From the NCBI RefSeq assembly GCF_964204865.1, contig NC_135263.1:11453426-11517425 (forward strand): 64,000 nt of DNA, in the 5' to 3' direction. Positions 7,657 through 29,550 of the stretch are shown one piece after another. The notes under the pieces were generated by a model, which worked only from the letters and a program-made list of their open reading frames with translations, was not told the origin of the DNA and searched no databases. Positions within the stretch are counted from its first letter, which is position 1. Every line of letters begins with the position of its first letter. The DNA comes from Styela clava (taxonomy: Eukaryota; Chordata; Ascidiacea; Stolidobranchia; Styelidae). Both the position numbers and the translations under genes were made by a program.

Positions 7657-9022
7657 ATGCAAACCAAATTGTTGATTGTTCTTGGTCTTGTGGCGATTCT
7701 TGCCTTTGAGGGTGGTGACTCCTTTTGGAGAAGAAGGCGTCGTAGAAGAAGACATCACTGTTCCTACCCGTACAAGGCTCACTACTATTCCACCCTGAGG
7801 CACTACCGTACTGTCAGCTCAAGGTACCACGTCATCTTGAGGCATTACAGGATACTTGTTAATTACATACATCACGTTGGCGTCAAAGCACTCAGATACG
7901 GAGGCCACGTGACTTCTATAGGAAGACAACTTCTTCATCAGTATTCCAGACACCAGTAAGCAATACCCGAACAATATTAGTATATATGTGTAATATGGCA
8001 ATTTAATAATTATAGTCTTTTCGACCAAGAATGAAGAGTTTCGTTACTAGAATTTAAAAAAGTTTGTAATACCATCATTTCTACAATTTAGAAATGAAAA
8101 TTCCATACTGTTTGTTCTCTCTTCTACCCCAAAATTAAAAACTGTTTTTGAATTAAATTTTCGGAATTTCTATCTGGTAATCACCCAGACTAACGTTCTC
8201 AAAATAAGATCGTATTTTTCAGTTTTATATATATTTGGAAAATGAGTTGCCCTCTTTGGCGTGTGTAGCTGAATGAACGTAATTTTGCACCAACTACTAG
8301 ATTCTAAGTATTACGAAATGCGTTGATTGAGGATTGTTATATATTCCGAGCCAATAAAATTTGAAAATTTATCATATTTCAGCCATATATCTCATGTCTA
8401 CGGAGATGAAGAAGATATCGAAGAGAGTGATCTTTTTGCCGAAAAAGATGTTCGTAAATTTATTTTTATTTGAATAAAATTTGGAAATCAGTTATCGTTT
8501 CAAATAAATCGAAATAGGCCAACTTTGATCTCATGTTTGCCTAGTTTTAAGTTACTGACAACAAAATCAAGATGTAACGTTATATTCACCATAATGATGT
8601 CAAATATCTTTTACTTTAAACTTTAATCACAATACTTTACTACTTGAGTTCAAAAGAATGTGCTTACTATATATGCCGAGTAGAACAAGTAATGATATAA
8701 AATATCATTGTACGTTAAGAATAATCGAACTTATTAAAATAAATATTATTGATCTTACATAAACTTTATTAACAGAATGATAGTTTCGAACAAGAATTTG
8801 ATGACCTGAACGATGATCAGGATATGTTCGAAGACTCTGAAGATACGAGTGAAAACGAAAATGAAGAAGTCCTGAAGGAACTCCCCGAAAAAGGTGAACA
8901 TATTTAAGTTGTGTTACTCGTGTTGTAAAAGGTTTGATGATTGTTCTTAAGACTTTGATTTAAATGATTTCTTATTTCAAGCTGAAGACGTCAACAAGGA
9001 TCATAATCTCAACGACGAATAG
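7657..9022 (+). CDS. Secreted arginine/histidine-rich peptide precursor with acidic tail (antimicrobial-peptide-like)
   Basis: Proposed exons are 7657-7955, 8383-8449, 8776-8893 and 8982-9022, giving 174 aa with consistent phases. Residues 1-22 form a signal peptide. FW and eight consecutive arginines (25-32) follow, then a Tyr/His/Arg-rich region with LRHYR at 47-51 and 61-65 and IHHVG at 71-75. From about residue 105 to the end the chain is strongly acidic (about 32 Asp/Glu in the last 75 residues). A signal peptide, cationic core and anionic tail is the layout of several ascidian antimicrobial precursors, so a secreted host-defence peptide is inferred. Only one Cys (35) is in the mature part. 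The exon 2 donor (GAT|GTTCGT) is poor; the better GTAAAT four bases on would give an early stop, so the exon 2-3 junction needs transcript support. The terminal exon is repeated at 51 and 13131. Confidence 0.7.
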
Positions 9023-9723
9023 TCTATTATAAGAAAACGACATGATTTTACAACCAGACATGGAACCGAAGCTGAGACAAATGTTGTCTATAGATAGCTC
9101 TATGCGTTCATAGACCATACTTGTTTAAACCTTTTTTTATTCTTTCACGTAAAAGTGTCATTGCTTGCATAATCATAATATACTGCATTAAGAAATATTT
9201 TGACAAAATCATTTATTAGCACAAAGATCAGTGTCAATGTTGCTTCTCAATATCATGTTATGTTCAATGAAAGGACACGTTGTAGCTTTGGATTCAGCTT
9301 TATTAATACGAATTGCATGCCACAAAATTAGGTAAGATGATATCCAATACTGTATACAGCAATATACATGTCAGGTCGAGGTCTATTCGAGGCTTAGTCA
9401 GCAAATCTTCTGTGTATTTAATTTACAAAATATATTAGAAATACCAGCAAAATGTTTCAGGCAGCGTTTTCGAAATAGATGAATTACTTTTTGGTATGTT
9501 GAATAGTCCTTTTCAAACGGAATATACAACTTGCCCACGGTGATATGAAGATTTATACTGCAAAATAAAGTGAATGGTTGAATATAATTTTGATAAATAT
9601 CAAAACCAATATAGAAACTACAACTTCTTACGATAGAATTGATTAAAATCATATATATGTATATGCATTTCGGAACTTACCTTAGGTAGCGCGACATGCG
9701 TTGGTCAACCAATTCAGCAACGA

Positions 9724-11568
9724 CTACGTCTTACGATAAAGGTTTTTCGAAGCATGCAGGGGTACGGCATATAGTGGAATCGGCATATTTCCAGTTGTTA
9801 CTGAATTTCGAGTTTGCTTTTTACTCTTATTCGAAGAAGACGAACATTTGCAGGCATTACAGCAGCATATACAGTGAAAAACAGAAAGAACAAATGCGAA
9901 GGAAATTCCAATCCCAGCACATTTCACATACCTCGAAAGGCGAACTAAAAAAATGAAAAGGAAATCCAGATAAGAACACTTTTGTATTTAAAAATCTCAT
10001 TCCCATAACTACATAGACGTGTGTTATTTTAGTTTTATCCCGTGTTAAAGACACGCTTGAAATAAAGCTAAAGACATTCATAAATTAATGGCGATAAGCA
10101 GACCCCTTTTACGCGTTCACAAAAGTATTAATATATATATGCAATATTTGCCCAGCACCTATTTAGTTGTTCTACAATGTCGGTGTCTTTGAGAACATAC
10201 CCAGCACAAGTACAAAAACAATCGAATTTCGTATCTCCATTCCAGTCCCCGTACCTTTTTCTCATCGGCTCGGTTTCGCGCCAAGCTCTGTTCGCGAACA
10301 GCGTGGTGATTCACCGTGGAGTTTCCGCAGTGAAATATTACAATTTAAATCAGTGCTGAGAGACGACGAAAACTAACCTAATCATACCCGCATGTATTAG
10401 CTTTATATTTACCACAGTTATCCACTTCGCTTACGAGATCAAATAAACCCAGACTGATTTAATATAGGCCATTCGCAGTTTTGCTTTACTAGTACTCGTA
10501 CTTGCATCTGCATGGCTTAATCTTTGAGTCAAGCATATCACTACTGGCGAGATCAAACAGATAGCTGCAGCAGCAGCGCTCGGTCCCTGCGGGGCCGCTC
10601 GTCGCTTTCGTTTGCGGCCGAAGCAATCGCCTGCGGCCGTACTCTGCTTGGACGCGATGTCCACGCACTCGCCAGGCGAGTGCTTTGCTTTTCGACTTTA
10701 CTCGCCCTACCTGTACCTTGCCCTTCTGTATCCTGTTTTTCACATTGATCTATATCACCGAAACAGCAATAAAATCCACCACGGCAACAGCATCCCTCTG
10801 AAACACATGATTTACTATTCAACATTGCAATATGCCAGATAAACCGAATATGCCAAATTTCATAGAGTATGGTAGCTAATGTTGTGTCACAGAATACTAG
10901 AACATCAAAAGATGTTCGTCTCGCTCTTAAGAAAATCAGAGTTTCGCAACTCCAAAATGTGGAACAAGTTTTGTGGGTGCAACTTGTTGGTACCAAGCAC
11001 CCCGCTTGAAATCCTACAAAAGTTTATTTCAGCTATAACATTATAAAGTATAAAGTAGTAAAGAGCCATATTTACAAATTATATCGCATTGAGAGTTATG
11101 GAAAATTTTTGTTATGTATTCGCATTTCTATAAAACGCGAAACTAATTATTGATATATACTATATATCTATGGAGCTGAAGAAGAACTTAAATATATACT
11201 CTACCCACCTGGACAGTGGTATCCTGCTCCGCAGTAATCGTAGGCCTATAAATAAAGAGCATTGCTGAGTTTTAGAACGATATTCAGTATAAGCAGAAAA
11301 CGAATTTTCTAACGCTTTATACCAGAGATCGTCAATCAATTACTTAGAAATCTGAACAAACTTTCATGAACACATAAGCGACGCAAAAATATTTCAGTTG
11401 AAAATGGTTGTGGGGGCAAAATTTATTCTTTCACGTGAAAGTGTCATTGCTTGCATAAAATAATCCTAAAAATAAAATCATAAAAAATAAATAAAACCAC
11501 AAAATATTTACCCGTACCTTGGATTCTACGATGATTGTCAACAATATTCCAACAACAAAGAAATTCAT
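9724..11568 (-). CDS. Small Shisa-like (STMC6-type) single-pass membrane protein, copy A
   Basis: Exons in transcript order are 11518-11568, 11209-11245, 10759-10797 and 9724-9944; phases agree and give 115 aa. Exon 1 encodes a signal peptide (MNFFVVGILLTIIVESK). Exons 2-3 encode the short ectodomain AYDYCGAGYHCPEGCCCRGG followed by FYCC: six framework cysteines plus one extra. Exon 4 gives a membrane segment (GIGISFAFVLSVFH), a cysteine-rich juxtamembrane stretch and a tail with MPIPLYAVPLHA. Tiny Cys/Tyr/Gly ectodomain, one membrane helix and proline/tyrosine tail match the Shisa-like group, whose members act as membrane adaptors; the function here is unknown. A small extra 3' exon is possible because a donor-like site occurs near the stop. 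Copy B is its tandem duplicate. Confidence 0.72.
10177..10359 (+). CDS. 60-aa open frame, unrecognised (weak)
   Basis: It starts at an ATG (10177) with MSVSLRTYPAQVQKQSNFVS and runs to TGA. It lies in the last intron of the minus-strand gene A. The homologous stretch in unit B (from about 19028) keeps the ATG but has a stop after about 14 codons, so it is not conserved as a frame. It could be a relic of a processed gene inside the repeat. I do not recognise the protein. Confidence 0.18.
   Translation: MSVSLRTYPAQVQKQSNFVSPFQSPYLFLIGSVSRQALFANSVVIHRGVSAVKYYNLNQC
10520..10760. repeat. GC-rich element in gene A intron (copy at 19320-19570)
   Basis: A sharply GC-rich patch (for example GCAATCGCCTGCGGCCGTAC) sits in otherwise AT-rich DNA, between exon 3 and the membrane exon of gene A. 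The equivalent position in gene B holds a diverged copy (about 19320-19570), carried along by the tandem duplication. No protein-coding frame is shared by both copies. It may be an older inserted repeat. Confidence 0.55.
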
Positions 11569-12395
11569 TTTGTGAATTCGACCGATATATGTCAAAACAA
11601 ATACTCACTTATATATATTTATATACACTTATCCTGTAATAAAATTTTAATGACACTTCCCTGCTAATTTTTAATTATCATTATTATCTATGAATATAAT
11701 CAATTTGGACGGAAAGCCATCACCAGCCTCCACTGCAATCTACTGAATGGATCAGAAATATGATAATCGTCAAAAGAAACAAATATTTCCTGATTATCAT
11801 ATTACAATATCACAATAATATAATATTTAGATATTGGTATATTTCTATCAGAATATCACTAGTTTATTTTTTTTTAACAATTTTACAAAGATTCAATATA
11901 ATCTCAAAAACAATGTTAGAATATGTAACATAAATATTGTGTAGTGGGCTTAGATAAATTTGTTTGTGAAACATCATTTCTCACCCACGCTCGAATCCTA
12001 TTCTTGATATTCTTTTGTTTCGCAGTTTCGTGGGCTATTTCCTTGTTATTGAATGACAGGGCAAAAGGCGGTTTACACCGTTGATATATCATAAATTGTT
12101 GCTAAACTGCTATCAAATATTACAAATGAAAATATTTACGATCATAACGTATATCTGCGTACAAAAAAAAACATAACACCCTCTTAAAGATCAATTGAAA
12201 ACATCCTATTAAAGTATATCTTTGCATAATTCGCGATGAATCTACACTGATATACTTAATACCCTTCGTTACCGCGACGTAAAACTGCTTTATACTTCAA
12301 ATTTTGCACTTCAATATATTGATAATTGAACAATCCTAAAGCGCCAGTGATATATTTGGAATAGTTTATATATACATTGAAAAGGCATCATAGAG
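11569..12395. other. Upstream region of gene A, no other gene seen
   Basis: AT-rich sequence upstream of the gene A signal-peptide exon, so its promoter must lie here; no TATA box or motif can be assigned. The equivalent of about 11360-12210 is deleted in unit B, which removed this putative promoter and exon 1 of copy B. The last 8 bases (TCATAGAG) are a hAT target duplication. Confidence 0.5.
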
Positions 12396-13060
12396 CAGGG
12401 GTCCGCAACCCCCGGCACGCGTGCCAGTCATGGCACGCGACGAGATTTTATATGGCACGCGGCGTCGTGAACATTTTTCCAAAAAAAAACATGATTTAAA
12501 ATGTTAAAATATTGAAAATAAATAACCGTACATGCGGTGCAAAACGCGTGGTTATTTTTGCTTTGTTTTATTGATACGTCAATATAATTTTTTTCAATAT
12601 TTTCACGACATTATTGCCCGCTTTCATGCTGGTATTTGCGTTTTATTACCAATTTCAAGAATTGTTGATCTGCTGTGAAAATGTCGTTGACAAATTAAAC
12701 GTCATTTTAAAACCTACACACAAAAAACTGACTGAGAAGAATGAAGCTTTTAAAAAGGATCTTTCACGTTTCAAAAAAGCAAAGTAGTATTTTCAACAAA
12801 AGTCATTCTCAGTGGAATTCAAAGTACGGAAAGTGGCCATAAAATGCAGACTGTATCGCTAATCGTTGGAAGCCTTTTACCGTTGGTAATTTCATTAAAA
12901 AGTATTTATCAATTGTTTCGAAGTTCTCTTTGAGAATGTGCCAAATAAAAATGTCATTCTCTCAAGAAATTAAAATCACCCAGTGTCTGCTCTGAGTGAG
13001 AAAAAACAAGGGCAGGTATCTTACTAAAACCTAGGGTTATTGTGAATATTTCTTTGTATA
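12396..13060. mobile_element. Left part of a hAT element cut by the duplication breakpoint
   Basis: It starts CAGGGGTCCGCAACC and continues with GGCACGCGTGCC. The left flank is TCATAGAG (12388-12395). The element has no right end here: it stops at the unit A/B junction. The right end of the same element survives at 20741 followed by TCATAGAA (20742-20749), one mismatch from the left flank, so the two pieces look like ends of one ancestral insertion. Confidence 0.8.
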
Positions 13061-13130
13061 TTACTCGTGTTGTTTCTCGATGAGGTAACGGTGGTAACGG
13101 TTTGATATTAAACAAGCTTCTTATTTTAAG

Positions 13131-13171
13131 CTGAAGACGTCAACAAAGATCAGAATCTCAACGACGAATAG
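13131..13171 (+). pseudogene. Orphan terminal exon of the secreted-peptide gene
   Basis: It encodes AEDVNKDQNLNDE plus stop after a TTTTAG acceptor, nearly identical to the last exon at 8982-9022. The duplication started inside the intron just upstream, so no signal peptide or cationic core precedes it. It could only be used by long-range splicing from 8893. Most likely non-functional. Confidence 0.75.
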
Positions 13172-14214
13172 TCTGCTACAAGAAGAGTCCTGCAAGACAA
13201 AATCTGACCTGGAACCGAAACTGAAACAAATGTTGCCTATAGATAGCTCTATGCGTTCATAAACCATACTTATACTTTTTTTTTCATTATTTCTTAAACG
13301 TGAAAGTGTCATTGGCTGCATAATCATAAATATACTGCATAAAAAAAGTTCTGACAAGATCTTTTATTAGCTCAAAAATCAGTGTCAGTGTTGCTTCTCA
13401 ATAACATGTCCTGTTCAATGAAAGGACACGTTGGATTGTTGGATTCAGCTTTATTAAAACAAATTGCACGCCACAAAATTGGGTAAGATGATATCGAATA
13501 TACAGCAATATATATGTCAAGTCGGGGTATATTCGTTTAGTCTTCTGTGTATTTAATCTCCAAAATACAATACAAATAACAGCAAAATGTTTCAGGCAAC
13601 GTTATCGAAATAGATGAAAAGCCTTTTGGTATGTTGGATAGTCGTTTTCAAACGGAGTTTAACACTTGCCCACGGTGATATAAAGACATTGACTGCAAAA
13701 TAAAATGAATGGTTGAATATAATTTCGATGAATACCAAAACCAATTTAGCAACGACTACGTCTTACGATAGAATTGATTGAAATCATTTATATATATATA
13801 ATTCTTTCGAAACTTACCGTAGGTTGTGCAGCATGCAGGGGTATGGCATGCAGTGGAATCGGCTTATTTTTATTTGTTACTGAATTTCGAGTTCGAAGAC
13901 GAACATTTGCAGGTACCACAGCAGCATTTACAGAGCACATAAACAGTAAGAAGGAATAAGAAGGCAATTCCAGATGCAAATAATTTTGCATGCCTTCGAA
14001 CACGACCTAGAATAGGTAAAAAGTAAATCCAGATAAAAACACTTATGTATTTTCAAATCATCATTTTCAAGTTATTCACATAACTAAATATAGATGTGTT
14101 TTATTTTAGTTTAACCCATGTTAAAGACACGCTTGAAAAAAGGGCGAAAGAAATTCATAAATAAAGACTATGGCGATATGCAAGGCCTTCGTTTACGCGT
14201 TCACAAAAATGTTA

Positions 14215-14217
14215 ATA

Positions 14218-14290
<73 letters not shown>
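14215..14290. repeat. (TA)n microsatellite
   Basis: About 75 bp of almost pure TA repeat, directly adjoining the left end of the 4.7 kb transposon. A shorter TA run (18960-18990) adjoins its right end, consistent with insertion into a TA tract. Confidence 0.9.
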
Positions 14291-14292
<2 letters not shown>

Positions 14293-17200
14293 AATACGGT
14301 AGTTAAGTAGACATACCGTGCTAAAAAAGCGACAGTTATGTAGACGGAAAAATTGGGTAGACATTTTCCTGTCCGCTTAATTATTCCACGTTCCATAATT
14401 AAAACGTTTTGCGATATTTTGCTGAAATCTCTTTTTCTCTGATAAAACAGTATCAAAAATAATATGTTCTTTCAATATTTTTTAAATAATAGCACATTTT
14501 CGCCAACTTTAATGGGACAGTAGTTCTGCTGGTTTATAATCAACGGGTTTAATTTTCGTACATAAAGTGGACATTTTATTTATGCAAAAATCTTTTAATT
14601 TTTCGGTATATGTTTTTACGATTTTTGGAGAGTAGGTTTGATAATTTTGATACAATAACCAGGCAGAACATGAAGATCGTCCGTTCTGTTTTTTGCAATA
14701 TAAGCTCAATAAACTGAAAAGGACCTCAATTCACACTCCGTACTAAAGAGGCTTTGTGTCGCAATAGTAAAACTGTCGGGTTCGCCGAGAACTTTGCCGT
14801 TTGCCGTTTACCACGTTTGCCGTTTTGTTCGCAAGTAACCTGGGCGCCGTGAGGGGATTGGGATCTTCATGAGTGCGTGATTGCCGAAATTTAGATAAAA
14901 TAGAACAGTTGTGTTTGGAGAAGCGTTCCAAGTCTTTTGTGTCAGGTGTTATCAGTTACCCAGTGAATTGAAGTCGAGTCATAATAACTTGAAACAAGGA
15001 TTTCAACGTCACCGAGGAATGCTGCTGGAAATCATCACTCATCGGATAAGGTGATTAGTCATAACGATTTTTAATATTAGGGTTACTATATTTTTGGTGT
15101 TGAGATTTTTCACGTAATCCAGATTATCAAAATTTAGACCATCAAAATAATGATACGACTGGGTTTGCGTTTGTAAAAGTGTGTAATTCAGAAGGATTCC
15201 AAATCCAGACGAAAATACAAACGAAGAATGTGAAAATTCAATGAATTCAATTTTTTGTCGAAAAAGAAGGATATACGAGAAGTGAGTGGTTGACGTTTGT
15301 ATAGTTTGGTGTAAATAAAAATATCTAATACACCGCTCCATATTAGATTAAAATATTTCCTCTTCGGAAAACAGTTTTGAAGAATTGCATTGCTAGCAAT
15401 TTTGTTTTGTGATTTGGCACATATCCCTGAGTTATTTTACCATCCTCATCTAGTTATTTACTGGGCTGTATTTTTTGTTCACATTTAGGTGACTCTCCAA
15501 CGAGATGGCCCACGTTTCAGAACTTGGCAGACGGAAATGCGGGTAGTGATTCGGAGAAAGCTGTGCCAGGAGGTGACTAAATGAGTTTGCTATGCTTGTT
15601 TTTTTATTAAATACGGTATCGTAAATTGATACCAATGAATGGTAATAAACCAAATCATAATATCATTTGTAGCCCATCACAAATAGCGCAGCTATCTACG
15701 AATAATTGTAGTGCACCGTTTAGAAACCTGGTTTATTTGAGTAATAATGCAATTATCCATTTCAAACATTTCGTTTGTTCGATCAATCAAGAGTAGCGTA
15801 ATTCTGAATTGGACTAAAACACTGTGATGATGTTTCGTGACTTATGCATGTATTTTTGACCAAAGTTTCAGATAAGTCAACAGAGTATACCGCACCATCT
15901 TCAGAGTCACTTTCAATAAGCAATGTAAGTGATTTCAAAGAAAACCATATATATGGAAAAGAAAAATGCTGTAAATCAATTCAAAAAAAAGCTTCTAAAC
16001 AAAAGCGAACCAGAAAAGAAACTACGAAAGAAAAATAATTGCACGGATTGGTATATCTTGTGAGAAGTTTATTGTAAAGCTTTAAGACATCTCTGTATAA
16101 TTCATAAAGATGAACCGGCAGTGAGCATAATCTTGTCTCTCCTCAACAACTTAACCTAGTGGGCATATCCACATTCGTATACATACTTGGCACACATTTT
16201 TACTATTCAATTATAAATTCAAAATAACAATCATGTTTTTGTATTCCGAGTTGGTGAAAAAATTTTAAATAAATTGTGCAAAGATTCTAAATTGGTATTG
16301 AGGTTCAATAATTTCATTTTGATCGCTTGTATAGTTGACTGTATAATCAATCACTGCTATAATTAGGCGCCCTGATAGGTTGACATTTGAGTTATAATTG
16401 GTGTAATGTTTCTCATTTTAGTTGACATGGCAAAATTTCGTTTCGCATTCATAGGCCCCATTGAAAACGTCCCTTAATTGAACATTTGAGATATGTTGTG
16501 TATAATGTTTCTCGATATTTTATTCAGAATTTCGTGTTTTAATTACATACCTTCTGAAATGGTTGAAATTTTTTTTGACTGCTTCTCAATATTATTGCCA
16601 TTCCAAAATATCATTTTGCATTTACATGACACACTTACGTAGCTAAGTAGATGACGATTTGCGATTTATTTTCTGTTTTGTTTTTCAATATGGTTTCAAA
16701 ATTTTGTTTTATAATATTTGTCACTCTCAAGTTATCGGATAGGTGAACAGAGATAAATTTTGAGCAATTTTCCACAACATCAAAATATGATTAGTATTCG
16801 AAATTTCGTATTTCAGTTAAATTTCACACACTGTGAAGTGTAAGTGTGTGAGATATATTTTGTGTAAGATTTCTCAATACGATTCCAGAATTTTGTTTCA
16901 ATAGTTGTATGCCACACTTAGGTGGTCGGATATGCGGACATTTGAGATATATATTTTGTGTAATGTTTCTCAAAATTATTTCAGAATTTTCATTTCAATT
17001 TTTGCATGTCCACACTTAGGTGGTCGGATAGGTGGACATTTGAGATATACTTTGTGTAATGTTTCTCAATATGATTTCAGAGTTTTCATTGTGATTGTTT
17101 TATGCCACACTTAGGTGGTCGGATAGGTGGACATTTGAGATATACTTTGTGTAATGTTTCTCAATATGATTTCAGAGTTTCCATTGTGATTGTTTTATGC

Positions 17201-18957
17201 CACACTTATGTGGTCGGATAGGCGGACATTTGAGATATATTTTGTGTAATGTTTCTCAATATTATTTCAGAATTTTCATTTCAATTTTTGTATGCCCCAC
17301 TTAGGTGGTCGGATAAGTGGACATTTGAGATATATATACTTTGTGTAATGTTTCTCAATATGATTTCAGAGTTTTCATTGTGATTGTTTTATGCCACACT
17401 TAGGTGGTCGGATAGGTGGACATTTGAGATATACTTTGTGTAATGTTTCTCAATATTATTTCAGAATTTTCATTTCAATTTTTGTATGCCACACTTAGGT
17501 GGCCGGATAGGTGGGCATTTGAGATATACTTTGTGTAATGTTTCTCATTACGATTTTGGAATTTTCATTTTAATGTTTCATGCCACACTAAGGTGGCCGG
17601 ATAGGTGGACATTTGAGATATACTTTGTGTAATATTTCTCAATATGATTTCAAGAGTTTTCATTTTGATTGTTTTATGCCACACTTAGGTGGTCGGATAG
17701 TTGGACATTTGAGATATACTTTGTGTAATGTTTCTCAATATGATTTCAGAAGTTTCATTTCAATTCTTGTATGCCATACTTAGGTGGCCGGATAGGTGGA
17801 CATTCGAGATATAGTTCGTGTAATGTTCTCAATATGATTTCAGAATTTTCATTTTTATGTTTATTGCCACACTTAGGTGGCCGGATAGGTGGACATTTGA
17901 GATATATTTTGTGTGATGTTACTCAATATGATTTAAGAATTTTCATTTAAATGTTTAATGCCACACCTAGGTGGCCGGATAGGTAGACATTTGAGATATA
18001 CTTTGTGTAATGTTCCTCAATATGATGTCAGAATTTTCATTTCAATTTTTGTACGCCTCACTTAGGTGGCCGGATAGGTGGACATTTGAGATATACTTTG
18101 TGTAATATTTCTCAATATGATTTCAGAATTTTTATTTCAATTCTTGTACGCCACACTTAGGTGGCCGGATAGGTGACATTTGAGATATATTTTGTGTAAT
18201 ATTTCTCAATATGATTTCAGAATTTTTATTTCAATTCTTGTACGCCACACTTAGGTGGTCGGATAAGTTGACATTTGAGATATATTTTGTGTAATGTTTA
18301 TCAATATTATTGGAATGCCATAATTTTGACTTGGTATTGATATCTTGACACTCACAACATAGCATCTGTTTAATCTATATGTTGCACCATAGGGTTGGAA
18401 TAGGCGAACATTTGTGATATGCTCTGTGTATTTCTCAGTTTCAAATATATAACACGTTCGGATCAATTTGTTTCGATTTGTCTACCTTCACGTTGCATTT
18501 CGAGTATTTTTTGATATGGAAGATTATTTCCAACACCAAACAAAGTGCATCTCCCTTGCACGAAAGACTGAACATTGAAAAAGGAAATGCTATTTTTTGT
18601 GATAAATATTGCTAAATGGTTCGAATCCATCGGAAATTAAAGCAAGGTCATACGCTTTAAAATGCGTATTAAAATAAAAGCAACATCATTTATGTAGACA
18701 TCCAGGGCGACATATAAGAGGGGTCCGGCTTAGTGCCGAAATAGGCTAAAACATTTGGTGGTCTGAATTAAGTGGACGAATTAAGCGGACAAAAATTTTA
18801 TATCTGTTATCGAGAGGATTGTGTTGACTCTTTTTCTCCGTAGTTGTCAACGGCTCTCGCGCTCTCCAAGCACGTATTCAAAAACAATGATACGGACACA
18901 GGAACGACGTCCGCTTAAGTACTGCAATTATGGCAGGTCCGTTTAACTACCGTAATA
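14291..18957. mobile_element. ~4.7 kb DNA transposon with terminal inverted repeats (pogo/Tigger-like ends)
   Basis: The left end begins CTAATACGGTAGTTAAGTAG. The right end, read inverted, begins CTATTACGGTAGTTAAACGG. Both ends carry subterminal TTAAGCGGAC-type words, as in pogo/Tigger-like TA-target elements; that family placement is inferred. The flanks are TA repeats on both sides. Small minus-strand frames at 14509-14931 are too short and unrecognised to call a transposase, so the copy is probably non-autonomous or degenerate. It contains the ~95 bp tandem array. Confidence 0.72.
16340..18440 (+). repeat. Tandem array, ~95 bp unit, core at about 16880-18310
   Basis: About 15 clear copies plus degenerate copies at both edges. 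Each contains CACTTAGGTGG, CGGATAGGTGGACATTTGAG and TTTGTGTAATGTTTCTCAAT. Spacing measured between the units at 17102 and 17197 is 95 bp. Copies differ by scattered substitutions and a few short indels. The array is internal to the 4.7 kb transposon and has no coding potential. Confidence 0.9.
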
Positions 18958-18960
18958 GAG

Positions 18961-18993
<33 letters not shown>

Positions 18994-20046
18994 ATATTTC
19001 TCCACCACTTATTTAGCTGTTCTACAATGTCATTGTCTTTGAGGACATACATATCTCAAGTACAAAAATAATCGAATATAATATCTTCATACTATCCCCC
19101 GTACCTCTTGTCCATCGGCTTCGCGTTGGTTTCTCGCCTTGCTTTGTCACACGGTTTGCGAACGGCGTGGTGGTTGACCGTGGAGTTTCTGCAGTAAAAT
19201 ATTACAATTCAAATCGGTGCTGAGAAACCAAAACTGATTTAATGAGCCATTCTAAGTTCCGCTTTACGAGTACTCGTACTTGCACCTGCATGGCTTTATC
19301 TTTGAGTGGAGCATATAACCATTATCAACGGGATAACCGAATAGCTGCGACGCTACGCTTGGTCCTAGTGGGGCCGCCCGGCGCATGCTCGTCGCCTTCG
19401 TGTACGCCCGAGGCAATCGCCTGCGGTCGTACTAGGCTTTGACAGTCGCTGTCCGCGACGTCCACACACTCGCCAGGCAATGCCGGCCGAAGCGCTTTGT
19501 TTTTCGACTTTGCTTTCTCATGCCTGACCTTGCCCTTCGATATCCTGTTTTTCACATTGATCTGAATCACCGCCGAGACAGCAGTAAAATCCACCACGGC
19601 AACAGCATCCCACTGAAACACATGATTTGATATTCAGCATCGTAATATACCAGATAAGCTAACTATGCCAAATTTCATAGAGCATGGCAGCTAATATTGT
19701 GTCTCAAAATACTTAACTAGAACATTAAAAGATGTTCGTTTCGCTTTTCAGAAAATCAGAATTTCGCAACTCCAAAATATGGGACAATTTGAGCTGAAGA
19801 AGGAAAACTTGAATTTAATTAAAACTCTACTCACCTATACAGCGGTATCCATTCCCGCAGTGATCGTAGGCCTATAAATAAAAACATTACTAAATTTTAT
19901 AACTATATTCAATATAAACAGAGAAACGAATTTTCTAGATATTATTCTAACGGTTCATAGCAGATAACTTCAACAAAATAATTGGAGATCTGAACAAAGT
20001 AAAGTAAAGTATATCTTTGCATATTTTGCGATGAATCTACACTGAT

Positions 20047-20741
20047 ATACGCAACCCCCGGCACGCGTGATATTGATACGTCAATATAATTTTTGTCAAT
20101 ATTTTCACGACATTATTGTCCGCTTTCATGATGGTATTTGCGTTTTATCACAAATTTCAGGGATTGCTGACAACAGACTTTGTGTTTGTTTGTCGTAATA
20201 ACCATCTGCTGTGTCGTTGTTGGCAAATTAAAAGCCATTCTGGAACCAAACACAAAAAAATTATATAAAGGTGAAGAGAATGTAGCTATTAGAAAGGAAC
20301 TTTCTCGTTTCGAAAAACAAAGTATTATTTTTCAAAAAATTCATTCGCAGTACAATTCAAAGTATGGAAAGTAGCTGTAAAATGCAGAATGTATCGCCAA
20401 TCGTTGGAAGCATTTTACCGTTGGTAATTTCATTAAAGAAGTATTTATCGATTGTTCCCTTTGAGGATGTGCCAAATAAAAATGTCATTCTCTGAGTGAG
20501 GAAAAGCGAGGGCAAGGATCCCACTGAAACATTGGGTTATTGTGAATATTTCTTTGTATATATAATAAAAATAACTTCAATAATTTTTCGTGAAATATTA
20601 CATTTAAGCATAACTTTAGGTAGTTAAACTATTGCCCCAGGTCTGATTATATAACGCAATTTTTCATCGGCCCGCAAACGTACATTTGGACATTAAATTT
20701 TAAAAATTGGCACACCGAAAAGAAAACGTAGCCGACCCCTG
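20047..20741. mobile_element. Internally deleted hAT element retaining the right end
   Basis: It begins within the family's left end (GCAACCCCCGGCACGCGTGA), skips about 145 bp relative to 12396-13060, then follows it to 20560. It continues to the right end GTAGCCGACCCCTG at 20741, followed by TCATAGAA. This is the unit B remnant of the element whose left end is at 12396. Confidence 0.75.
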
Positions 20742-22548
20742 TCATAGAATATCTACATGACAATAAAATTTCTTCAAAAAAACTTTCACGTTTTATTAGG
20801 CCACCATAATATCTTAACGACATCTATACAGTGAAATTTTTAAAAATATGAAAAAAAATTCTAGATTTTTGTATTTTTCAATAAAAGTTCAACAACTACA
20901 TTTATCATCATATGTAGTATAATCAAATATTTCAATCAATGGTATTCTTTCATGAAAGTTTTTCATTGCATTAATATCCAGTAATTAAAAATTGGGTTCT
21001 CCGAGTAAAATATTAAGCCATGAAAATATCAACAATGATTTTTGATACGTTTTCACGCCCTTTTTCACCACAAGGATTTGTAGATGTAGCCAGCCGTAAT
21101 AAGATGCTAATATTATAAAGAGCAGAATTTTTAATTCATGTTAGGTATTGCGTAGCTATTGTATCTCGTCTCGGGTCATGCGGGACTATACAGAGAAAAA
21201 TACTGAAGTAATAAATAATTGTCTTGGCCTGAAATAAAAGTCATTCCTTTCTGACGAACGCGCACATAAAGATATCTAATTAATTTTCGGTACAAATATT
21301 CTTTTTAATATTTGAGGAAAGGGGGAGGTTTGAGGCATGTTTAATAGGCTAGTGGCACCAAACTACGTTGTCATTGCAAGTTGGAAGTTCACGAAAACTG
21401 TGACAAATTAGGTAAGCTGTATTTCACTGGCTGCATTTGACAACAGCTATTTCTCATGGGTGTTCTTGTTCCAACTTCCAGGTACCGTTATAGCACAAAG
21501 GACAAATTGCTGTCAAAATCAGATCCATAATGAGATACATAGCATATATATATTTATGTATTGTGAAGTTAAAATTGTTCAAATATCTTGTTGGACAGGA
21601 ATAATAATATACGTTAAAATTCCATAAACACAAAGCTCAATTATAATGTTTCAATTCAATATAGTATAGAGACTTAAAAAAAACTATATATAATAACATG
21701 AAATATGAGTTTAATATACATAACAGCGATGATCTTTGTTAGTCAATAGGGATATCAATAGTGGGTATATTTCTACAGAGTTGTGAGCGGGCTCATCGTA
21801 TAAGGACTGATCTAAGACTGAAACCATAAATACTAACCTGTACCAAATCATCATCATTGTGGGAGACCCACGCGATGAAACAACTCAATCAATTTAACAG
21901 TTCATCATGTAAATTGTCAGTTATCAATTCTCGTGTTTGGATTACAACAAAATCGTATACTTAATCTGCGATAGCAACAATATCAGATAATCGTATCGTC
22001 AAATTTTCAAACCGATTAATTGATATCCATTCAACGTCCTTACCACACAAACACTAATTTACAGAAACATAAAATAGTAAAATATTAAAATAGTATGTAT
22101 TTTCATAGATGATCAATTTTTCTTGAAATCAAGTCTGACGAACTGGTACTGTTTGCTGCATGAAATGAAATAGTTTACGTTAGAGAGATTAAAAGAAGTT
22201 AGAAGACTCGAAGTATACGTAAGCCTAATTAACCAAATTTACTTTCTAACCCACTGTCAACATTGGCAAAAATAATAGTATTTTGTTTTATATTAAAAGC
22301 TAACTTCGTAGTAAAAATGATGTCTAGAATTAACTTTGTGGTATCATTCAGCATAGCGTCTAGGTCGTGTTGCCAATTTGGAATTGTAAATTGTTTATTT
22401 ACAACCTTTTAAATTCGAAACTAGCATTTTAAAGTTAAGTTTGTTTCGCCTGAACTACTGCGAACATAATTTCTTTAGTATATTGTTAAACTTATATGAC
22501 GTCATTCAATCATGTTTTGATGCATGGTTCGATGCACACAAATTGGTT
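20742..22548. other. No gene seen
   Basis: AT-rich spacer between unit B and gene C. I saw no exon, RNA gene or complete transposon. Confidence 0.45.
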
Positions 22549-24157
22549 TTATCTAATTATCGCCATGCGTTTTTTCCAGAAGCACCAAAAACCAATTGCG
22601 CATCCAGCTAGTACAAGCAGTACAACGACGATAATCCCGACCCCTAGTATAGAAATTACATATCTCAGATTCAAATAGATAAAATTATAAAGTGAAGATA
22701 GTGATGTTATTTTTTCCAAAAAAAATATGATTAAAATTGATTCTATTTTCGGGCATTTTTGTTTTTATAAATAAGCTGTTTAATTTTTACTCGAGTTTAG
22801 AAAACTAATTTCTTTTTGAATCTCGAAAGGCGACTAATTAAATGGTAAATGATACAGATAAAATGAAAAGGTATTTACGGCGATATGGCTGAACATCCGA
22901 TTACAACATTAAATTCGTTTTTTTTTTTAATTATATAATTAGAATGTTTATCACGTATTATATAAGGTCTAACTGAATTGTAATTCAAACATATATGTAC
23001 ATATTGATCACATTATTCTAGAAATAATTAGGCGGCCAAAATTGGACATGAAGCTTAAATTATATAGTAGAAAATGAGAAAAATGAATATCATTTTGACT
23101 GTTTTAATATGAGCATATAATACTGGAGGTGGCAAATAGAAATATACTATAGGAATTTAGAACAACTTTTCCCATTGCTTGTCGAACAAACACTCACACG
23201 ATAAAGATCCCCAGTACAGCAATAACCCCTGCCTGTGCAGCAATATCCGGCTGAAAGTGAGAAATTGTTACGTTATAACAAGACTGTGCACATCAATGTG
23301 TATAATTTAAATTGTGCTATGTTTTCATATTAGACAAATATTCGTACATACATGGCACACACAGTTTTATGAATGACTTTCAAATAAAGTTCAATTTATT
23401 ATTATGCAGTGAAAGTGTTAACATTTTAAAGCTTTTTACATTAACTAAACTTTTTTGTGTGACGCCTATGTTAATGCATTACTATTGAGTTTGCATAACA
23501 CAAATTCCAAGCGACAGAATTAAATTTATGACGGGAAGTTGAAGAATCCGACTTTTATGGTGCCATATTTGACAGTAAGCTTACATTGAGGGTATTGTAT
23601 GATTTTATAAGGACGTAACATAAAACAAAAGGTTAACACACAACTATATCTCATAACTAACATATTTATATATGATAAAATACTAATTCTCATTACTCAC
23701 AATAACAGTAAAATCCGTTACCGCAATATTCATATGCCTGCGTACAAAATAAAAGTGTGGCTTTATTTTTTTACACATACCAAAAAATGTCACATTTATA
23801 GAGATTCCTACCTACAGGGTAATTCCAGAACGACGAAGGGCAGTTAACTTCGAAAAAATATAAAGTTTTTAAAGTTCGATTATTCATTTTTGTTTTCTGA
23901 ATGTTTTAAAAGATTCCTTCTCAGTAATTGCACGCTGCTCGAGTGACATATGTAAATAAATGTACTACAGCTGATAAAATTGTTGTGTTCTCGATTTACT
24001 TTAGATATATATTTTTTGCTAGTGACTGTATATAATAAAAACATCCTACAACTAGTACATATTTCATTAGAAGCAAACGTATTATGTTTACCTGGCAAGC
24101 TACGAAGAACGTTGTTAAAAATCCGATAATACGAGAAAATATCAACCTCCCTTTCAT
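22549..24157 (-). CDS. Small Shisa-like (STMC6-type) membrane protein, copy C
   Basis: Exons in transcript order are 24092-24157, 23701-23737, 23200-23250 and 22549-22643; phases 0-1-1 agree and give 82 aa. Exon 1 is a signal peptide (MKGRLIFSRIIGFLTTFFVA). Exon 2 (37 nt, AYEYCGNGFYCY) and exon 3 (SGYCCTGRGYCCTGDLY) form the C-X5-C-X4-CC-X5-CC ectodomain. Exon 4 is a hydrophobic helix (VGIIVVVLLVLAGCAIGFWC) and a short basic end (WKKRMAIIR). Unlike A and D there is no proline-rich tail, so either the tail was lost or another 3' exon exists that I could not find. It lies outside the A/B duplication and is more diverged from them. Function unknown; membrane adaptor or receptor is inferred from family architecture. 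Confidence 0.72.
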
Positions 24158-26613
24158 TTTGATGCGATTCCAGTGTAAATTGTAGTGTTTTAAATCTACA
24201 AATATACCAAAAAGGCTATTGGTCGAGGGCTAGGCATTACAGATTCCCAACACTTTTGTGATTATTTGTTTCATACTATTTAATAGTATATAAGATAGCT
24301 ATAATATTACAAATATGCACTTGGTAAGGTACAGAGTTGCCCGAACACTTTTCGCATTTACACAAAAACGTGAAAAAAAATCCAGGATTATGAAGTCAGC
24401 GTTTTGATTGAGCAAACAAACATTTTTAGCTTCAATCAAAGCAATACCACGAACATAAACCTATTCAATCGTGTGGATGAAAGCCTCTCGAGCTTCAAAT
24501 AAATTTTTGCTGGAGTAGAACAATCATGTTGCTCGGGCTTTATCAAGAACACCCGCCACAAAATCTGGTCTTACCACTGCTAAAGGATACATCAGAGTAA
24601 CGACTCAGACAGACAATACGTTCCCATCGAGTGATACTCAATAAAAATACTCTGAGCGTATTCAGCGTCTGCAAACATATACAGAAAATGAAATCATTCC
24701 ACAATCTATATGATGAAGTTGTGACACAAAGATATATTATGTTTCCTATATCTCTGTATATAATACACTGTTGATAAATTCATAAATTTGTTCGTGGATT
24801 GGAAGTAAATCATTTGCCATGAACTTTGTGTCAAGTTGATATTTTACTTCTATGTAAGCACACCTCACCAACAGTTCATTCCCGAATTCCTCTCATCAGT
24901 GGTTGTACTCGAGTACTTGATAACTTAAGTGTGCAGAAAAAGTAAGTCAATTTAATTACCATATATTGCTGACAGACATGCTAGAAATTGATTGTAGTAC
25001 AAGTAATCAATACCGAAAATGGAATGAAATCATTACCGTGATTATTCAACAGACTTCACTTGTCATCAATGTTATCATACCCAGGAAGAAGTGTAATTCA
25101 TAAGACGTTATTTTCTACAGTGTTCACGTTGTGTACAGTAATTTTGATGAATTGGTAACAAAATTTTTCATTGTTCGCAACCTCTATACTCCATATTCTA
25201 TCCAATCCAATCTTGTTAGGACGAAAAGTTGAAGTCGTCCCATGCTCTCGAAATAACACGCATCTCTTTGGGCATTTACCAAACCTCCAAAAGATTTATT
25301 AACGAAAAATATCACACTTGTTCAATTAGTTATAAGAATTTGCTCAGGGTTACGGGCCCTCATCTGGATGGAGATAATACTTATATACTGTTATACTGTT
25401 ACCGTCGGCAACTGGAAAGTCAAAAGTTAATGAAACTATTTAGATTAATGGTAGTACATTACATGTAAATGCCCAATACCACAAAATAGTTCAATACCAA
25501 AACTAAATTGACATTCATAAGCTAATTAATTTCACGTAACTAAGTTCTCGGTTTAATCGTGACGAAAAAAAATTAGTTATTTTCTGATTAATTTTCCAAA
25601 ATTCGTGAATCGTTGATAAACTGAAAAATTCGGCATTTCATGTGTAGCTCATCCTTCAAAATTTCTTCATTGACCATATCCTTAATATTATGTTTACTGT
25701 AGTTGTCAATATATCGAGTTAGTGCTGAAAAATGCATCTTATGATAGTCGCTCCCAGTCGAATAGAACACTCATTTAAATTATAACCCCGAAGAATCATG
25801 TTAAATTATTGAAATATATATATATATAGAAAAAAACATTGATACCAAGTAGAAAAAAATCCTATTGAAGTGAATTGTCAACAAAATGATTCCCAATATA
25901 TTTTTTTGCTTGCTGTAACATTTATTGTCATTTATAAACAATGACGGTCTACATATCATCCATACACTTTTCGAAAGTGATCGTTGTGACGAAAACTACA
26001 TTGCATACAAATGTTAGTTCCATGTAGACGCTGCTATTAAAGACTTTTTAATGGAGCAGCGATAGTATTGCAAATCTAGCAAAATTCTATCAAATAAAAA
26101 TAGACGCTTAGATTAAAAGTTTCATTAACATAAAAATTTCAGTTACTTTACTAATTTTGTACATTGTTTTTTCTAATAACTAATATGCTAATAGATCCTG
26201 CAGGAAAATAGCGTTGTCGTATGATTCAGTCATCTTCCGTGATGATGTCATCAGATTTGTTCGTGACTAACTCAATAGATATTGGATCATATCTTAATGG
26301 TGTTTTGAATTTTGACATAATAATATTTTCTTAATTAAAAATTAATTTTCAAATAATTGTATATTATTCTAAGATATGGTTATATAGCTCTGCATTGGCC
26401 TCTCCCCATTTAGATAGACCAACTTTTAAAGACTTTAGTTTAGGGAATTATATACACCAAATTGAATTTTAATAAGAGTAAGGCATTACCGTGTGTAATT
26501 TATTAAGATTTTCAATATCCAACATTGGAATCTTGGTAAATAATATTATTTGACACAAATAGTGGTAATAATTTATTTTATACAGCGTATAGACGACAAC
26601 TTGACATTGTCGC
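24158..26613. other. Shared upstream region of genes C and D
   Basis: Genes C (minus) and D (plus) are divergent, with 2.46 kb between their start codons, so both promoters lie here. The DNA is AT-rich. I could not place core promoter elements, and short open frames at 25229-25770 have no support. Confidence 0.4.
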
Positions 26614-28137
26614 ATGGATTTGAACATGATTTATCTTCGTTTCATTGTCTCGGTATCAACTTTGTTGAACTATTGCCAGGTACCTTGCTTTTGTACAATA
26701 ATAAATAACGTTAAAAAAATACTAGATTTCAGTTCAATCACACATTGTTAATGACTTATTCTAAGAAAACAAAAAAATTTATTTTTTCACGAAACTCTTA
26801 GTGAAAGTTACCACACTATGATACAACACTATGTTGAAGCGAAAAAGAAACATTTTTATTGCCATACACCTGTCTTGTTCTGTTCCAACATGCTTGTATT
26901 CATGATCATATAGCGAGCGGTATCACAGGAGTAGCCAAATGCTCACACGACTGGATTGGTTATGGCTTAAAAAGAACTAATTTTTTAATTTTCTCCATAG
27001 GCGTATGAAAGTTGTGGCGGAGGATATTACTGTAACAGTGAGTACGAAATTAAATGCCAGAAAATCCTGCATTTTTGCTAATTTCAAATCATACATTCAA
27101 ATGCACTCAATTTTTAAATATATTAATGATTCGGATTTATAAAAAAAAATCGGATTTCAGAGAGCCAATTTGTGATTTTTGTAGAATCTATCAATGAAGT
27201 GCTAGCTATGTGTACACTCTACACCCATAGTGCTAACCGCTTCCCCATACTCTTTCTGCTTCTTTTGAAGAACCTCCGCTTGGATGAATCTCTAATGTGT
27301 TCGTCGTACAAAGTATTAATAAAGTTCCACTTTACGATATTCTACGGCTACGCTTATGTAAAAAGTACTCTATTTTTAGCCGGATACTGCTGCAGGGGCG
27401 GAGTCTATTGCTGCACATACAACACTGGAACGTCTGGAGGATCTCTGTGGTGTAAGATGTTATATATTGGCCAAACAGTGACTACGCTTTTAAACAATCC
27501 ATATTTTGCAGCAACTCGTATATAAACATTAAATGTTATTAATTGATATAGTTGGTCGCTCAGTGATGGTTGATTTTGAATTTGAATAAGGCTTTCCAAG
27601 TGTTATTTGTGCATCGATAACAACAAACAAACGGAATTTCTAATGGGTAATATATAACCCTGTATCTGGAAGCACCAACTTCGCATCAACCCAATACTTT
27701 TTTTTTTAATCTGTTGTCATAGTTATACGAATCATTTTTATTTAACAGGGGTTAGTCTTATCGTCTTTTTTCTGCTGGCAATATGTGCCGTAGTTGGATG
27801 GTGGTGCCGACGAAGAAGAAATGCGGTTCCCGTTCAGGTTCCAACTACCGCCGTCTTCACGACATCTCAACCTTATAACCCTGCACCGCCGTATGTTGCA
27901 ACGGTATGGGATATATTTTGACAAACATATTTTCTATTGAATAAGTAAAAAGTGGGAATGCAGCCTTGGGTTAAGTATCGTTTGATATAGATGCTGCAGT
28001 TCAGATAAATCTTCGTATAATTATTATAAAAGCGCAAGGGTATTGATCTATGGAATCGACAAACAAAAGTGCTATTCGTGTCATAGAGATTATTCATGTC
28101 TTTTTTTCAGCAGACAACAACTACTGCTCAGACCTGA
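26614..28137 (+). CDS. Small Shisa-like (STMC6-type) membrane protein, copy D
   Basis: Exons 26614-26679, 27001-27037, 27380-27451, 27749-27903 and 28111-28137 join in frame to 118 aa. Exon 1 (66 nt) is a signal peptide (MDLNMIYLRFIVSVSTLLNY). Exon 2 is again exactly 37 nt (AYESCGGGYYCN); exon 3 gives GYCCRGGVYCC and a Gly/Ser/Thr linker. The cysteine spacing is C-X5-C-X4-CC-X5-CC. Exon 4 has the membrane helix (VSLIVFFLLAICAVVGWWC), an RRRR stop-transfer and a tail with PYNPAPPYVAT; exon 5 adds QTTTAQT and the stop. This is the fullest member and best fits the Shisa-like layout (proline/tyrosine tail, though not an exact PPxY). It diverges from gene C, and its 3' flank is duplicated at 30735-31300. 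Confidence 0.75.
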
Positions 28138-28911: not shown

Positions 28912-29550
28912 TTAAAACTCGTCGTGCTTGTTGCCGCTAAATTCCCATATTGAGATAAATCCATCTTTGTTGAAATCTTCCAGTTCGAAAATATCGTTCG
29001 TAAGTTTCATCTCTTCCGCTGACGACATTGTGTGGCCTTTAGCCTTCTCTACCTCCATGCGCAAGTAGTGAACAAATTCAAACTTTGAAAGATGTTTGTC
29101 GGCATCCAAATCCATTTCTTTGAATACATCGGGATGACGAGGTCCCTGCTCTGCGTGGACTAATTCAACTTCGAAAATTATGGTGCCACCAGGCATTTGG
29201 GGCACGCTGCCTCCATCCACGCCATATGCCATATTAGGAGGCACTGTTAGCCTTCGTTTCTCTCCAGGACACATGTCAATAAGACCTTCTTCGAAGCCTT
29301 CAATAACTTCGCCAATTCCTAACTGAAATCTGAACGGCTTATCGGGGTGGCTTTTGTCGAAAAGTTCACCAGTGTCAAACTTTGTTCCATTGAAGTGAAC
29401 GAAAACTTGGTCGCCATATTTGCTAAGCCTTTCGCATTGATCCGGCTTTTGTAATACTTCAACCTTAAACTGAAGAGATCCACAAGTAACGCCTACATAC
29501 AAAGTTAGCACACAAGTTAAAATCCAAACTGGTGTATTACCCATATCCAT
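28912..29550 (-). CDS. FKBP14: FKBP14-like ER peptidyl-prolyl isomerase
   Basis: A 212-aa single open frame, close to the roughly 211 residues of vertebrate FKBP14. Signal peptide 1-24. The FKBP-type isomerase domain (about 30-135) has the HFNGTKFDTGELFDKS, GEVIEGFEEGL and PPNMAYG blocks; Cys39 and Cys94 probably form the family disulfide, and NGT at 54-56 is a glycosylation site. Two EF-hand loops follow, with calcium positions D147/D149/D151/S155/E158 and D192/N194/D196/S200/E203. The C-terminus is HDEF, a variant of the HDEL/KDEL ER-retrieval signal. The family assists collagen and other secretory-protein folding in the ER. The gene is intronless here, unlike vertebrate FKBP14, which could mean intron loss or retroposition. 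Confidence 0.95.
   Translation of the reverse strand: MDMGNTPVWILTCVLTLYVGVTCGSLQFKVEVLQKPDQCERLSKYGDQVFVHFNGTKFDTGELFDKSHPDKPFRFQLGIGEVIEGFEEGLIDMCPGEKRRLTVPPNMAYGVDGGSVPQMPGGTIIFEVELVHAEQGPRHPDVFKEMDLDADKHLSKFEFVHYLRMEVEKAKGHTMSSAEEMKLTNDIFELEDFNKDGFISIWEFSGNKHDEF

Follow-up and report, generated by a model that had tools for sequence, protein, structure and literature searches.

What are the very small cysteine-rich membrane-protein genes that lie together in one stretch of the genome of the ascidian Styela clava, and from which family could they have come? The stretch (64,000 nt, positions 11,453,426 to 11,517,425 of contig NC_135263.1; hereafter the window) holds, between 9.7 and 28.1 kb, four copies of one gene type: A (9724-11568), B (13870-19871) and C (22549-24157) on the minus strand, and D (26626-28137) on the plus strand. 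A sequence-only reading of the window had described four Shisa-like gene copies on both strands; the copies stand, although as three apparently intact genes and a pseudogene. We put at roughly 0.55 the probability that they form a tunicate cluster that arose from the WBP1 branch of the Shisa-like (STMC6) adaptors, with A, C and D apparently intact and B the pseudogene.

Exon design and protein architecture of the cluster

In all four copies exon 2 is exactly 37 nt long with a phase-1 end, just as the sequence-only reading had it; AG and GT flank it, and in every copy four codons precede its first Cys. It is followed by an exon encoding CC-X5-CC and then by a membrane exon. When the window was scanned for the exon-2 pattern (a stop-free exon flanked by AG and GT, with codons 5 and 11 encoding Cys), four sites were found, each with a CC-X5-CC exon at most 1.2 kb further on, so that the exon pair occurs four times; in 60 dinucleotide shuffles exon-2-like sites averaged 0.3 and exon pairs 0. 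Because the pattern was modelled on the copies themselves, this count is a test against chance and not an independent prediction. Over 264 kb (the window plus 100 kb on each side), the copies accounted for all four exon-3-like sites and for four of the five exon-2-like sites, the fifth lacking a partner. At the DNA level, the significant matches between C and D are exon 3 (E 1.7e-6) and exon 2 (E 2.5e-4), with their edges, and no others.

The encoded core has 24 residues, with six Cys common to the copies and loops that vary from copy to copy. The framework C*C*CC*CC, proposed earlier as C-X5-C-X4-CC-X5-CC, is exact in C and D, but A and B add two Cys to it and not one, which brings the ectodomain total to eight (C-X5-C-X3-CCC-X5-CC-X6 or X7-C): one stands in place of the Tyr that precedes the first CC, and the other comes after the second CC. 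Signal peptides and helices were judged by hydropathy alone. One first-exon scan, the same for all copies, which listed 17 partly nested candidates across both strands of the window, gave a candidate signal-peptide exon for A, C and D; for B there was none in the 2.7 kb upstream, so the signal-peptide exon attributed to every copy holds for three. These three also have open frames and usable splice sites. The second Cys exon can end in phase 1 in all copies, as had been claimed, but C needs the weak donor GTGTGA for this and the donor of B is poor (GTCAGG); similarly, a membrane exon is present in each copy, but that of B is broken by a 20-nt deletion and an early stop.

The donor of C bears on what is made from these genes. 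Its helix is in frame only with GTGTGA, and a perfect donor, GTGAGT, overlaps this site two nt on and would shift the frame to yield a 63-residue protein without a helix. Such a product would suit precursors of small secreted Cys-rich peptides, whose Cys block is shed or, as with C's stronger donor, made helix-free by splicing, and defence peptides typically have short cores dense in Cys. We nevertheless consider this explanation quite improbable, given that in A, C and D the core is followed by a strongly hydrophobic stretch (best 19-residue windows 2.12, 2.85 and 2.62, respectively), as for a single membrane helix.

Intron positions shared with WBP1, and the weight of the sequence comparisons

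The same genome has one clear WBP1 gene, on contig C10, with two exons over the Pfam WBP-1 cut-off; the protein joined from three of its exons, at splice sites inferred from sequence, matches WBP-1 with E 6.2e-34. At its 5' end the Cys exon of this gene is in phase 0 and encodes DEEV ahead of the first Cys; at its 3' end it breaks off in phase 1 after ELW plus a T, and the following exon completes the second Trp. Copy D is built likewise: its Cys part opens in phase 0, AYES leads up to the first Cys, and a phase-1 end follows SLW plus a T, the next exon restoring the second Trp, so that in both genes a phase-1 intron splits the second Trp of LWW. A and C share with WBP1 both intron phases and the first offset, of four codons before the first Cys. 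Specific to the cluster is one further intron, in phase 1, that lies a single codon past the second Cys and so delimits the 37-nt exon. By our own rough figure, the naive chance of two phases and an offset coinciding is ~1%. Moreover, an alignment of D to the C10 WBP1 protein anchored from the exon start to LWW, a test applied to D alone, scored 58, a value reached by 0 of 5000 shuffles with Cys fixed and by 52 of 5000 with Cys and Trp fixed. The exon structure points to the WBP1 branch rather than to Shisa proper.

Several results weigh against descent from WBP1. In local alignments to WBP1 that took in core, helix and start of the tail, with Cys fixed, D was modestly above chance (46 of 2000 shuffles reached its score), and C and A were not (746 and 224 of 2000). 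The membrane exon of D resembles that of WBP1 weakly (114 of 2000 shuffles), and the intron after it is in phase 0, against phase 1 in the C10 gene, so that a third intron was dropped as an additional match between the two. C and D also align in register where exon 4 begins, but no better than expected by chance (E 0.45), and other chance matches lie beside this one. Neither PPxY nor LPxY occurs in A, B, C or D; the nearest approaches to proline-tyrosine (PY) motifs are IPLY in the tail of A and APPY in that of D, with nothing else, and P-x-Y arises by chance in 14% and 28% of the shuffled tails of A and D, respectively. Lastly, when A, C and D were listed against Pfam at E up to 10, WBP-1 was far under its gathering cut-off of 28.1 bits for D (9.9 bits, E 1.5) and C (9.1 bits, E 2.7) and absent for A, and three of 30 Cys-fixed shuffles of D matched it too, the best with E 0.0019 (four of 31 counting D itself). 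Since such shuffles score as well as or better than D, the weak Pfam match is not evidence, and we dropped it as proof of membership; the profile search that the sequence-only reading had proposed as a check hence fails to place the genes. One of 30 shuffles likewise matched CYYR1 (E 0.016).

These results would be explained if the genes encode tunicate-specific tiny surface proteins that are not descended from WBP1, reached C*C*CC*CC independently and function through the ectodomain, as receptors or in defence, and not by WW binding. The Cys pattern and the helix would then explain most of the profile and local-alignment scores, and the missing PPxY, the almost tailless C, the two extra Cys of A and B and the differing core loops would fit as well. 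What such an origin leaves to coincidence are the two intron positions and phases in common with the C10 gene, including the split Trp of LWW in D, and the anchored ectodomain alignment of D that none of the 5000 Cys-fixed shuffles equalled. We regard it as rather unlikely. Because of the intron positions, taken together with the alignment results on both sides, we consider descent from WBP1 likely for D; for A and C it would follow from their paralogy with D.

Searches for other relatives were made in the whole genome (376.6 Mb in 379 contigs). With D, C and A as protein queries, relatives turned up in the window and nowhere else, but these searches were insensitive, query D having missed A, B and C; with this limit, the confinement of relatives to the window fits a local expansion. 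A place on contig C13 found with D (E 1.33) was no relative when read, and at a weak WBP-1 place (C10:1704475, E 0.926) there was no CC-Xn-CC block in the 4.6 kb examined up to it. Shisa_N (PF13908) and CYYR1 (PF10873) gave no match for A, C or D in the Pfam listing and nothing over the cut-off genome-wide, where their weak places had E 3.45-7.53 and 1.92-6.24, respectively. For Shisa_N this agrees with the loss of the Shisa family reported for Ciona intestinalis in a study that used VOPP and WBP1 as outgroup (PMC7653359). Two NCBIfam matches, both to bacterial families, were far under the cut-off. Pattern searches for relatives matched 72 stretches in viral contigs and 26 in contigs of prokaryote genomes, none of which was confirmed, and Rfam (gathering threshold) and tRNA scans of the window gave no matches.

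Selection on the core and decay of copy B

Are the copies still under selection? Over the 24 codons of the core, the pairs A-C, A-D and C-D differ at 10-14 third positions, as against 5-7 first and 5-7 second positions, and non-synonymous differences per site (pN) are 0.18-0.28, compared with synonymous differences (pS) of 0.67-0.85; with so few codons, and with silent sites nearly saturated, the ratios are rough, although their direction is not in doubt. The core of A, C and D is under purifying selection. Between A and B, change is relaxed, as expected if B is dead, with pN 0.13 and pS 0.18 in the core and pN 0.29 and pS 0.20 in exon 4 before the deletion; the tails of A and B have diverged.

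Copy B is very probably a pseudogene, because it has no signal exon, a 20-nt deletion relative to A and a poor donor. Its former tail can still be recognised in a different frame (within 13824-13961), and about 0.8 kb present in A is absent from B, including the segment that carries the signal exon. A and B belong to a tandem duplication whose longer aligned blocks are 74-82% identical, introns included. The last intron of B holds a 4.7-kb insertion between AT microsatellites, with ends of the CTAATACGGTAGTTAA type and, inside it, a 95-bp unit repeated 15.4 times. A repeat of ~490 bp (12569-13061 and 20071-20561, 74% identical) closes each duplication unit at its far end, adjoining GGCACGCG-rich sequence that resembles the end of a DNA transposon.

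That B is broken in several ways, that in its exon 4 pN is no lower than pS, and that the tail of A diverges from that of B could suggest that all four copies are decaying, functionless relics. Since the cores of A, C and D show purifying selection and all three genes have open frames and usable splice sites, we find this highly improbable.

Relation to known adaptors and a possible mode of action

The cluster shares with WBP1/WBP1L (PF11669), including the C10 gene, the C*C*CC*CC ectodomain and one helix, a phase-0 intron four codons before the first Cys, a phase-1 intron before the helix and Cys near the membrane; in C and D, moreover, four residues separate the second Cys from the first CC, as in WBP1. 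It differs in its first loop (5 residues against 10 in WBP1), in the spacing between the CC pairs (5 against 4), in the extra phase-1 intron within the Cys block, in lacking YYYEL and the tail exon with LPxY/PPPPY, and in falling under the Pfam cut-off. CYYR1 has in common with it a signal peptide, a short Cys block, one helix and small size, but its three WWP1-binding PPxY motifs (PMC11399591) are absent from the cluster. Shisa proper likewise has a Cys-rich N-terminal domain, one helix and a proline-containing tail, but a much longer ectodomain. TMEM92 and VOPP1 are named with WBP1 as Shisa-like relatives (PMC5578492, PMC11399591), and a four-aromatic motif in the membrane segment is ascribed to this group (PMC5578492, S1 legend). 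Judged by eye, the aromatics of the membrane segment are WW, FF and WW in D and FWCFW at the inner end in C, with no such cluster in A.

The earlier assignment to the Shisa-like (STMC6) group was in the right neighbourhood as regards Cys framework and topology, although the Pro/Tyr tail expected of it is degenerate in A and D and absent from C; that the tails differ sharply was correct as quoted. We class the cluster as a WBP1-derived variant of the Shisa-like kind, and do not place it inside WBP1 itself, as it reaches neither the Pfam cut-off nor a PY motif. In the open-access literature searched, we found no account of such a tunicate cluster.

If the genes do stem from WBP1, one intron would have been gained within the Cys block and the PPxY-bearing tail exon lost. 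Each protein would be of type I, with a disulfide-bonded Cys block that faces the lumen or the cell exterior and binds a partner there. WBP1L, for which a compact C*C*CC*CC domain is presumed, is palmitoylated and has NEDD4-family ligases as partners, with three [L/P]PxY motifs (PMC6991692), and CYYR1 brings WWP1 to late endosomes via PPxY (PMC11399591). By analogy, juxtamembrane Cys of the cluster proteins may be palmitoylated, for which the six Cys within ten residues at the inner end of the helix and just after it in A appear suited, and the tails of A (IPLY) and D (APPY) might dock weakly on WW domains of NEDD4-family ligases. Rsp5 reportedly binds a VPEY motif in the yeast Rcr proteins (PMC5578492), so that a first Pro is not essential. 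Docked A and D would send their partner to endosomes, and C, with about ten cytoplasmic residues, could not dock ligases and would act as a non-recruiting competitor.

A bolder proposal, which we think unlikely, is that a tunicate WBP1 offshoot turned from a NEDD4 adaptor into minimal surface proteins, with a disulfide core of ~24 residues, one helix, tails swapped or dropped copy by copy and a new recognition role carried by the ectodomain alone, in animals that seem to be without Shisa proper. Were the WBP1 origin true, the cluster would show how small a WBP1-type ectodomain can become and how such adaptors lose their ligase-docking motif, in a tunicate that has no detectable Shisa gene and elaborates the WBP1 branch instead. 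Pfam matches to Cys-rich families of this kind call for a Cys-fixed shuffle control, and intron position can signal homology where sequence hardly can.

Table 1. Coordinates of the cluster exons, the duplication and the insertion (positions in the window) and of the WBP1 gene (positions on contig C10).
Feature	Position	Strand	Description
Copy A exon 1	11518..11568	-	Candidate signal peptide MNFFVVGILLTIIVESK; phase-0 end
Copy A exon 2	11209..11245	-	37 nt; AYDYCGAGYHCP; phase-1 end
Copy A exon 3	10717..10797	-	81 nt; EGCCCRGGFYCCFGDIDQCEKQDTEGQ; phase-1 end; second in-phase donor 6 nt on
Copy A exon 4	9724..9944	-	Membrane helix, Cys-rich juxtamembrane stretch, IPLY tail, stop
Copy B exon 2 remnant	19835..19871	-	37 nt
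Copy B exon 3 remnant	19529..19612	-	84 nt; poor donor GTCAGG
Copy B exon 4 remnant	13870..14006	-	To early stop after 20-nt deletion relative to A
Copy C exon 1	24092..24157	-	Candidate signal peptide MKGRLIFSRIIGFLTTFFVACQ; phase-0 end
Copy C exon 2	23701..23737	-	37 nt; AYEYCGNGFYCY; phase-1 end
Copy C exon 3	23200..23250	-	51 nt with donor GTGTGA; phase 1
Copy C exon 4	22549..22643	-	Membrane helix, about ten cytoplasmic residues, stop
Copy D exon 1	26626..26679	+	Candidate signal peptide MIYLRFIVSVSTLLNYCQ; phase-0 end
Copy D exon 2	27001..27037	+	37 nt; AYESCGGGYYCN; phase-1 end
Copy D exon 3	27380..27451	+	72 nt; GYCCRGGVYCCTYNTGTSGGSLW; phase-1 end within second Trp codon of LWW
Copy D exon 4	27749..27903	+	Membrane helix, proline-containing tail with APPY; phase-0 end
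Copy D exon 5	28111..28137	+	QTTTTAQT, stop
Tandem duplication	8954..20561		A unit 8954-13061, B unit 13101-20561
Insertion with terminal inverted repeats	14291..18961		In last intron of B; 95-bp tandem array at 16849-18311
WBP1 candidate signal exon	13527202-13527092		Within C10:13521001-13531000
WBP1 Cys exon	13526930-13526825		106 nt
WBP1 membrane exon	13524457-13524299		159 nt
WBP1 tail exon	near 13522767-13522633		LPKY and PPPPY

Elsewhere in the genome, on contig C9, there is a Pfam GH6 match over the cut-off, in a gene that is spread across several open stretches and was read by eye. Among animals, GH6 is known only from tunicates, where it is fused to cellulose synthase, and by this match the genome looks like that of a tunicate. 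A COX1 search, aimed at the mitochondrial code, gave no hit. Horizontal transfer of cellulose synthase in ascidians is mentioned in PMC6339383.

Within the window, an open frame at 7657-7956 (+) encodes a secreted-looking protein of ~100 residues, rich in His and Tyr, whose signal peptide is followed by eight consecutive Arg; it had no Pfam match at E up to 1 and could, at a guess, be an antimicrobial or tunic protein. Convergent with copy D, a single open frame at 28915-29550 (-) encodes an FKBP-type isomerase with EF hands and a C-terminal HDEF. Further on are exons matching an M24 metallopeptidase (37267-37581), a mitochondrial carrier (44037-44390) and, just under the cut-off, a VPS15-like helical domain (60211-60498).

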